Shown: positions 8,901 to 40,771 of the stretch, piece by piece
Layout of the letters: each line of letters starts with the position of its first letter
Numbering within the stretch: the stretch's first letter is position 1
NCBI GenBank assembly: GCA_945906795.1
Contig: CAMDRO010000001.1
Location: 1 to 64,000 of the forward strand
Direction of reading: 5' to 3'
From: Spirosoma fluviale
GTDB taxonomy: Bacteria > Bacteroidota > Bacteroidia > Cytophagales > Spirosomataceae
Length of the DNA: 64,000 nt
Position numbers and translations under genes: made by a program
Notes under the pieces: model-generated
Databases searched by the model: none
What the model was told of the DNA's origin: nothing
What the model saw: the letters and a program-made list of their open reading frames with translations, nothing else

Positions 8901-8961
8901 ATTGATTTTGTATAAATGTATATTTTTTCTCTACCAAATTTATAGACTTTTATCTAAATAA

Positions 8962-8990
8962 AAAAGCAATCCTAAAATAGGATTGCTTTT
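8962..8990 (-). terminator. Intrinsic terminator of the tRNA-like RNA gene
   Basis: 13-bp perfect stem AAAAGCAATCCTA / TAGGATTGCTTTT with 3-nt loop and U-tract on the minus strand. It lies between the RNA (ends 9024) and the peroxiredoxin start (8900). Confidence 0.85.
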
Positions 8991-9023
8991 AACATTACAC
9001 TTCATCAACAAACTAAAAACGAA

Positions 9024-9169
9024 TGGCTGTAGGAGAAGGATTCGAACCTCCAAGATGTGGTTAGCCACGACACAGAACTAACTTAGTGGTCAACCCGTTA
9101 TGCCGCGTTTATCCCAGAATCACCACCCCCGAGACAGGAGGGCACGTCTGCCAATTTCATCACCCTACA
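9024..9169 (-). ncRNA. tRNA-like RNA with a 74-nt insert in the variable region (apparent anticodon GUC, encoded CCA)
   Basis: Minus strand: acceptor UGUAGGG/UCCUACA; D-arm AUG-AAAUUGGCAGA-CGU; anticodon arm CCCUC-CUGUCUC-GGGGG; T-arm GGAGG-UUCGAAU-CCUUC; G discriminator; genome-encoded CCA. An intrinsic terminator follows. Confidence 0.8.
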
Positions 9170-9188: not shown

Positions 9189-9303
9189 TAATTAATATGT
9201 TAACAAATATAATGTGCTAAAGTATAAATTCAAAATTATTTAATGAAATTGTCTTTTTTTTATAAATATTTCAACAAATACACCATTTAATTTTAATTTA
9301 TTC

Positions 9304-9768
9304 ATGGATCGTAAGCAAGAACTTGACCCACTTGATTTTAAAATATTGAAAATTTTAGTATCAGATGCTAATTTGCCTTTTACCGAAATAGGTAATCGGC
9401 TAGAGGTATCAGGCGGTACTGTTCATGTACGTATGAAAAAAATGCAAACCTTAGGTATCGTTAAAGGTTCTCAATTACTGATCGATTACTCTAAGATAGG
9501 TTGGGATATATGTGCTTTTCTTGGCATTTATTTAGATAAAAGCAGTTTGTATGCTGATGTGGCTAAACAACTAGAAGAAATACCCGAAGTGGTTAATATT
9601 CATTATACGACTGGGATTTATTCTATATTTGCTAAAATTATATGTAGAGATACACAGCACCTCAGAGAAGTTTTACATGATAAAATTCAAAAAGTTAATG
9701 GTATCCAAAGGACTGAAACATTTATTTCCTTAGAAGAAAGTTTGATCAGAAATACACCATTATTTTAG
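9304..9768 (+). CDS. Lrp/AsnC family transcriptional regulator
   Basis: 154 aa; LDFKILKILVSDANLPFTEIGNRLEVSGGTVHVRMKKM winged HTH plus RAM-like domain. Confidence 0.92.
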   Translation: MDRKQELDPLDFKILKILVSDANLPFTEIGNRLEVSGGTVHVRMKKMQTLGIVKGSQLLIDYSKIGWDICAFLGIYLDKSSLYADVAKQLEEIPEVVNIHYTTGIYSIFAKIICRDTQHLREVLHDKIQKVNGIQRTETFISLEESLIRNTPLF

Positions 9769-40404: not shown

Positions 40405-40491
40405 GGAGAGATGCCTGAGAGGCCGAAAGGAACAGTTTGCTAAACTGTCGTACTGGCAACGGTACCGAGGGTTCGAATCCCTCTCTCTCCG
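40405..40491 (+). tRNA. tRNA-Ser (anticodon GCU)
   Basis: GGAGAGA/TCTCTCC acceptor, loop TTGCTAA, class II variable arm, GGTTCGAATCC T-arm; CCA not encoded. Confidence 0.95.
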
Positions 40492-40502
40492 CACAAATTT
40501 TT

Positions 40503-40576
40503 CGGGGTGTAGCGTAGCCCGGTATCGCGCTTGGTTTGGGACCAAGAGGTCGTAGGTTCGAATCCTGCCACCCCGA
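40503..40576 (+). tRNA. tRNA-Pro (anticodon UGG)
   Basis: CGGGGTG/CACCCCG acceptor, CTTGG-TTTGGGA-CCAAG anticodon arm; CCA not encoded. Confidence 0.95.
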
Positions 40577-40579
40577 CTT

Positions 40580-40624
40580 AGTCAATTTATTTAGGAGTGT
40601 TAATCACATTTAAATAAATTGACT
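40580..40624 (+). terminator. Long AT-rich hairpin between tRNA-Pro and tRNA-Arg (terminator or processing structure)
   Basis: 14-bp perfect inverted repeat AGTCAATTTATTTA / TAAATAAATTGACT, 17-nt loop, then TTTTA. Confidence 0.6.
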
Positions 40625-40635
40625 TTTTATTTATT

Positions 40636-40709
<74 letters not shown>

Positions 40710-40771
40710 CTTCAAATAATTTTTTTCAGCTATTTTATTCTTCTTGAAGAATAAATATAAAATTATAAGTA

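Follow-up and report, generated by a model that had tools for sequence, protein, structure and literature searches.

A tRNA-like RNA with an oversized variable arm is encoded on the minus strand of the Spirosoma fluviale window, the whole stretch of 64,000 nucleotides that was analysed, and it belongs to a real structured RNA family that is not listed in Rfam 15. As delimited by its sequence and by alignments, the body of the RNA covers 143 nt from U1 to the discriminator G73 (positions 9027–9169). The fold of the family, its conservation, its synteny and its carriage by phages are established computationally. This conserved RNA, which occurs in most sampled genomes of an environmental bacterial order and beside the tRNA and tmRNA genes of large phages, is missing from Rfam 15, and its long form is not called by ARAGORN.

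The explanation favoured here, with somewhat less than even confidence, is a tRNA-processed, Asp-type, non-decoding tRNA mimic that works with AsnC. Put more broadly, and held just as tentatively, the family may be a new class of non-decoding tRNA mimics with a structured arm domain, forming an AsnC-linked amino-acid signalling or carrier system of Cytophagales and their relatives that was taken over by phages, and acting as an aminoacylated regulatory RNA outside translation. We infer processing, CCA addition, aspartylation, control by AsnC and a role in the following manner. A free-standing small RNA gene would give a product that is processed like a tRNA; this type of processing is suggested because the elbow, the T-loop and the tRNA-type 3' end are intact. 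The body would be derived from tRNA-Leu; its anticodon loop and its discriminator would have changed to those of the Asp type, position 37 would have turned into a pyrimidine, and the variable arm would have expanded into a structured domain. Transcription would proceed away from the AsnC regulator and most likely under its control. AspRS may bind or charge the RNA, which could then act, in connection with the supply of Asp and Asn, as a charging-state signal, a sponge or an Asp carrier. The bacterial locus would often also give rise to a conserved tail RNA, either within one transcript or on a neighbouring one. Phages would have only the tRNA-like part, placed in tRNA arrays, and would use it to sustain or block the host function. 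The family offers a testable case of a tRNA apparently out of decoding, with synthetase identity elements kept and a gene-order link to an amino-acid regulator. Its charging status and the amino acid attached would show directly whether bacteria use an aminoacyl-RNA as a regulator or carrier.

Cloverleaf and covariation

All parts of the RNA lie on the minus strand. The acceptor stem is composed of UGUAGGG (9163–9169) and UCCUACA (9028–9034), followed by the discriminator G73 at 9027. The D-arm (9144–9160) is tRNA-Leu-like, with a 3-bp stem and conserved GG and AG in its loop. The anticodon-like arm (9126–9142) has a 5-bp stem with compensatory changes and the loop CUGUCUC (9131–9137), which is of the Asp type apart from a pyrimidine at position 37. 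It is followed by the elaborated variable arm of 74 nt (9052–9125) and by the T-arm (9035–9051) with the canonical loop UUCGAAU. A preceding sequence-only reading had given the minus-strand sequence from 9169 to 9024, a 74-nt variable region and an encoded GCCA, all of which match letter for letter.

The RNA is present in one copy in its own genome. Three ordinary tRNAs at 40405–40710 are the sole ARAGORN calls in the 64-kb window, and the stretch 9024–9169 is not called. Searches of Rfam 15 yielded no match at gathering thresholds and only weak, unrelated matches at E ≤ 10, in agreement with the initial view that the RNA is neither a tmRNA nor a member of any known family. A resemblance to tmRNA (SsrA) exists in that a tRNA-like domain lies within a longer RNA and that large phages carry both beside tRNAs. 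However, the RNA lacks a tag reading frame, has a full anticodon arm and carries its insert in the variable loop, and neither the ssrA covariance model nor any other Rfam tmRNA model matches it.

As the single-sequence fold is unremarkable (z = −0.42) and hence uninformative, the case for a structured RNA is comparative. In an alignment of 17 sequences, 99.1% of cells are paired, against 52–64% with the partners slid, and two-sided changes occur in 13 of 25 pairs (0/500 shuffles). Among 115 distinct sequences, 97.7% of the proposed pairs form, against 53–61% when slid, and two-sided compensatory changes are found in 21 of 28 pairs, a value reached by none of 500 shuffles. The four tRNA arms drawn in the sequence-only reading are real, and the covariation that it had asked for is present in both alignments.

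For a position-by-position view, 227 unique members were dissected. The cloverleaf with stems of 7, 5 and 5 bp and the elbow (G18 G19 and U54-A58) are found in the family. The acceptor pairs U1-A72, G2-C71 and U3-A70 are nearly invariant among the unique members, pairs 4–7 covary, and the discriminator is G in 226/227. The encoded CCA that had been pointed out is indeed present in this RNA, but is not a family trait (22/227); the conserved 3' end is G73-C74. C74 was considered as a special feature and rejected, as ordinary tRNAs of the same genome also encode it. In two loci, L069 and L074, the T-stem contains a 2-nt UU bulge, which is unusual for a tRNA.

The closest known relatives are class II tRNAs, especially tRNA-Leu, with which the family shares the 7-bp acceptor stem, the 3-bp D stem, the Leu-like D-loop, the 5-bp anticodon and T stems and the presence of a variable arm. 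tRNA-Leu genes are also the strongest off-family matches of the covariance model. The family differs from tRNA-Leu by G73 instead of A73, by U1-A72, by the Asp-like loop and by the pyrimidine at position 37. The variable arm of class II tRNAs usually comprises roughly 10–25 nt, whereas in almost every member of the family the arm spans about 40–130 nt and has a conserved internal loop. Unusual arm geometry is also known from natural non-canonical tRNAs such as allo-tRNAs. In these, however, the length of the acceptor/T or D parts is altered, and they act in suppression or decoding; in the present family, by contrast, canonical stems are combined with an elaborated variable arm. A term search of a review on non-canonical tRNAs gave no mention of Bacteroid- (PMC7609411).

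Anticodon-like loop, identity elements and phage copies

The loop CUGUCUC occurs in 213 of the 227 unique members, with CGGUCUC in nine, CUUUCUC in two, and CUAUCUC, CUAUCCC and CUCUCUC in one each, a tally biased by the retrieval of named and viral loci with a pattern containing the common loop. The parser required C32, U35, C36 and C38 and left positions 33, 34 and 37 free; the invariant loop columns are also seen in the 17-row alignment A1, which was made without the parser filter. Position 37 is a pyrimidine in 227/227 members and position 33 is G in nine. G34 is present in 222/227, the exceptions being two U34, one C34 and two A34, and most members have the anticodon GUC or AUC. In contrast, U33 is found in 176/177 and a purine at position 37 in 174/177 of the ordinary tRNAs called in these loci; of the three exceptions at position 37, two are phage members of the tRNA-like family and one is a questionable call. 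Because position 37 is always a pyrimidine, unlike in the ordinary tRNAs of the same genomes, the tRNA-like RNA probably does not decode. Complementarity of CUGUCUC to 23S rRNA, at a site that we take to be near A2602, was considered and set aside, since about one 7-mer match of this kind in five is to be expected from chance in an RNA of 23S size.

An ordinary tRNA-Asp with the loop CTGTCAC is encoded in the same genome. Compared with tRNA-Asp (GUC), the loop of the tRNA-like RNA is one base off (CUGUCUC versus CUGUCAC), and G73, G2-C71, U35, C36 and C38 are shared and conserved across the family. In contrast, the Asp elements G1-C72 and G10 are replaced by U1-A72 and A10, the body is of class II, position 37 is U or C, and the ordinary genes are separate. 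The bacterial Asp identity set consists of G73, G10, G34, U35, C36 and C38, with G1-C72 and G2-C71 strictly conserved; G73 is an antideterminant for LeuRS, and tRNA-Ser identity depends on C72 plus a large variable arm (PMC9976931). Leu identity is therefore excluded by G73, which takes the place of the A73 of tRNA-Leu in 226/227 members, and Ser identity is disfavoured by A72 (PMC9976931). As a partial Asp set is kept, Leu excluded and Ser disfavoured, aspartylation is the best guess: the RNA is probably charged with Asp, a prediction from identity elements rather than a result.

The tRNA-like RNA is carried by 57 viral contigs of IMG/VR. A BLAST search of annotated phages returned one huge phage, the 636-kb LR756504.1, with a match at 76% identity, and a short partial match in MT835737.1. 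Other tRNA genes lie in the fetched stretch of 29/57 viral contigs, although a few of these calls may stem from the 90-nt member and the gene next to it; tmRNA is present in five contigs. This 90-nt form, found in some phages, has a plain 21-nt class II arm in place of the elaborated one and is called tRNA-Asp(GTC) by ARAGORN. Three phages (L288, L294, L310) encode a separate ordinary tRNA-Asp as well. Terminase and portal genes are among the neighbours of phage copies; at L263, L269 and L281, a few kilobases at most separate the RNA from a gene for the large terminase subunit (phrog_6681). At L258, L271, L288 and L294, the RNA closely follows a tRNA-Ser(UGA) gene.

The strongest rival to the non-decoding mimic is a specialised translating tRNA, namely an isoacceptor of tRNA-Asp, of class II and with an enlarged arm, that would be used under certain conditions and be carried by phages in aid of their translation. 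The intact elbow and T-loop, the GUC or AUC anticodon of most members, the ARAGORN assignment of the 90-nt form and the location in phage tRNA arrays with tmRNA agree with such a function. It is nevertheless judged rather unlikely, given the pyrimidine at position 37 in every member, G33 in nine and U34 or C34 in three, and the coexistence of ordinary tRNA-Asp. Furthermore, some descendants have no anticodon arm yet keep the acceptor and T-arm, and the RNA is missing from many genomes in which no replacement was seen.

Genomic locus, downstream tail and distribution

Upstream of the RNA, on the minus strand, a promoter element TATATTTG of the Bacteroidota TAnnTTTG type is located at 9204–9211, with a TTG at 9231–9233, 19 nt further upstream. 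Across the family, TAnnTTTG was detected at −60 to −15 in 78/186 loci, compared with 5.9 expected. A rho-independent terminator-like hairpin with a U-run is found on the same strand at 8958–8990; terminators occur in 50/184 loci versus 3 in shuffles.

The conserved neighbour, divergent on the plus strand (9304–9768), encodes an AsnC/Lrp-family regulator. The protein matches Pfam PF13404 and PF01037, i.e., an AsnC-type HTH plus a RAM ligand domain, and its best NCBIfam model is AsnC with 159 bits, under the cut-off of 227. An AsnC ortholog is the first upstream gene and divergent in 107/156 loci with an assessable neighbour. These 107 neighbours span 23 AsnC groups at 80% identity, and the downstream genes vary by genus. 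Among 69 genomes with clear RNA status, from which G268 was left out as it has a divergent member, the ortholog is present in 31/32 RNA-bearing genomes versus 11/37 without the RNA (Fisher p = 3e-9, the lineages not being independent). AsnC does not always need the tRNA-like RNA, since some genomes keep AsnC with the tRNA-like part lost or reduced. In phages, and at some bacterial loci, the RNA does not adjoin an AsnC gene.

Downstream of the RNA, a conserved 25-nt tail UUUUUAGUUUGUUGAUGAAGUGUAA (8995–9019, minus strand) precedes the terminator and is present in a single copy in the genome. All 95 tail occurrences in 1.95 Mb of loci belong to the locus of the tRNA-like RNA: 91 follow a parsed member on its own strand at a distance of no more than 500 nt, and the remaining four are attributed to entries that are duplicates or escaped parsing. 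The tail, or one related to it, accompanies 116/203 bacterial locus-strands and 0/58 viral ones. Its distance from the RNA is 1–174 nt, with 90–174 nt in several genera, in some of which it is located behind a terminator-like hairpin. These distances and intervening hairpins suggest that the tail can be a separate gene, and it may be a separate small RNA gene without an Rfam entry. A peptide function of the tail was rejected, as the reading frame after ATG is, by eye, not conserved between genera.

The tail could also reverse the roles of the two parts: the tRNA-like element would be a mere processing signal, excised by RNase P and RNase Z to free the tail RNA as the real regulator. Conservation of the tail across genera, its occurrence only beside the tRNA-like RNA, and two genomes (G062, G276) with a tail-like sequence but, by eye, without the tRNA-like part speak for this. 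It is considered unlikely, because the phage copies have no tail, because the tail lies far off and partly behind a terminator-like hairpin in several genera, and because a conserved loop or arm motif would be needless. Known tRNA-linked small RNAs include the 3' external-transcribed-spacer RNA of E. coli tRNA-Leu and the tRNA-miRNA transcripts of herpesviruses. They show the same order of a tRNA-like element followed by a regulatory RNA. In the present family, however, the tRNA-like part is itself non-canonical, and phages have it on its own.

By blastn, the RNA was found in 44/59 related genomes and 13/22 genera. A covariance model built from 17 members gave strong matches in most of 244 sampled Cytophagales genomes, the split into strong and weak being read from the scores. 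The weaker matches (E of about 1e-9 to 1e-17) seem to represent ordinary tRNAs, as those checked are tRNA-Leu. With a limit of E<1e-18, the RNA was detected in 22 genomes of a phylum-wide sample of 199; these include members of families f23, f24 and f27, which do not belong to the order. Named carriers are Aquirufa, Spirosoma, Dyadobacter, Cyclobacterium, Algoriphagus, Belliella, Emticicia, Runella, Flammeovirga and Thermoflexibacter, in addition to many Saprospiraceae MAGs. Many genomes lack the RNA, with no replacement seen. In family f21 (genomes of 0.7–2.7 Mb), which we take to be endosymbionts, the RNA is present in 0/19 sampled members, and both AsnC and the RNA are absent from all nine tested for AsnC. 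Plasmid searches yielded no match, and no earlier description was found in a literature search of openly accessible journal articles. Tandem arrays of two to five RNA gene copies about 200 nt apart were observed at L225, L099, L108, L174, L075, L065 and L068; arm divergence differs between the copies, and the loop is identical within each array.

Reduced forms also occur. In genomes that lack a recognisable member, AsnC-divergent sites hold a divergent copy with a degenerate T-loop and A73 (50 bits) in G268, a weak model match in G263, and in G245, by eye, a comparable acceptor/T-arm remnant. In G102 (L330), an apparent acceptor/T-arm minihelix (UGUAAGU ... ACUUGCA-G-C, by eye) is found, with the tail kept. 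In family f13, at L327 (G268), L334 (G245), L335 (G263) and L128, the AsnC-divergent RNA is remodelled and followed by two hairpins repeating ATCTGGGTGGGT; the T-loop or anticodon arm is degenerate in the first three.

The distribution bears on another explanation: as a decoy or a substitute, the look-alike would absorb or resist cleavage by enzymes that attack tRNAs, for instance anticodon nucleases and toxins. Its presence in hosts and phages, its absence from all 19 sampled f21 members and a loop that is tRNA-like but non-decoding are in line with this idea, which ranks behind the processing signal and is also improbable. A simple decoy would not be expected to show so little variation at its acceptor end or a conserved synteny with AsnC, the loop sequence bears no sign of an arms race, and no linked nuclease was found among the neighbour genes.

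The variable arm

The variable arm is mostly 40–110 nt long (range about 40–130), and 21 nt in two unique phage sequences. Its layout consists of a 4-bp stem V1, mostly a 4-nt 5' bulge, a 3-bp stem V2, an internal loop and a distal hairpin. In the S. fluviale RNA, V1 pairs GGUG (9121–9124) with CAUC (9054–9057), and V2 pairs UGG (9114–9116) with CCA (9058–9060). The internal loop has GAUAAA (9108–9113), in other members also close variants, opposite the unpaired CUAA (9061–9064). The distal hairpin region V3 (9065–9107) varies between members and contains GGGUUGACCAC here; across the family, the distal region comprises 8–84 nt, often with GG(G/A)U(U/A)GACCAC. All four V1 pairs form in 206/206 parsed arms. 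For V2, 560/618 pairs form (shuffle mean 386, maximum 411) with the best-pairing register picked per sequence, which inflates this number somewhat; the fairer fixed-column figure is 87.3% paired in 115 rows, with two-sided changes in all three pairs.

The pairings first proposed for the insert (UGGU/ACCA, GUUAG/CUAAC and a GUGG-CUAA-CCAC hairpin) did not hold, as they are not conserved helices: CUAA is unpaired, and CCA pairs with UGG. A pseudoknot between the anticodon loop and GGGAU of the insert was likewise rejected, since the loop is constant while its partner varies (GGAAU, GGCAU, GGUAU).

The sequence-only reading had also offered an intervening sequence that is spliced out to leave a tRNA of about 72 nt. 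The 74 nt do form one block, but the arm belongs to the fold: V1 and V2 covary across the block, the distal hairpin varies freely, the phage version has a 21-nt arm instead, and no group I or other intron family in Rfam 15 matches, which makes splicing very improbable. A decaying tRNA pseudogene, for which the missing ARAGORN call might speak, is refuted by conservation with compensatory changes in many families within the order and in some beyond it. Of the three options initially listed, a new class of tRNA-derived RNA fits best; that account did not include the AsnC gene, the tail downstream, the copies in phages or the Asp-like character of the loop.

Two variations of the arm were observed. 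In a phage group (L258, L271, L288, L294, L305, L306), the internal loop is GAAAUAG facing UGAA. At L122 and L141, an extra palindromic insertion of the CCCGATAGCTATCGGG type is located in the bulge between V1 and V2.
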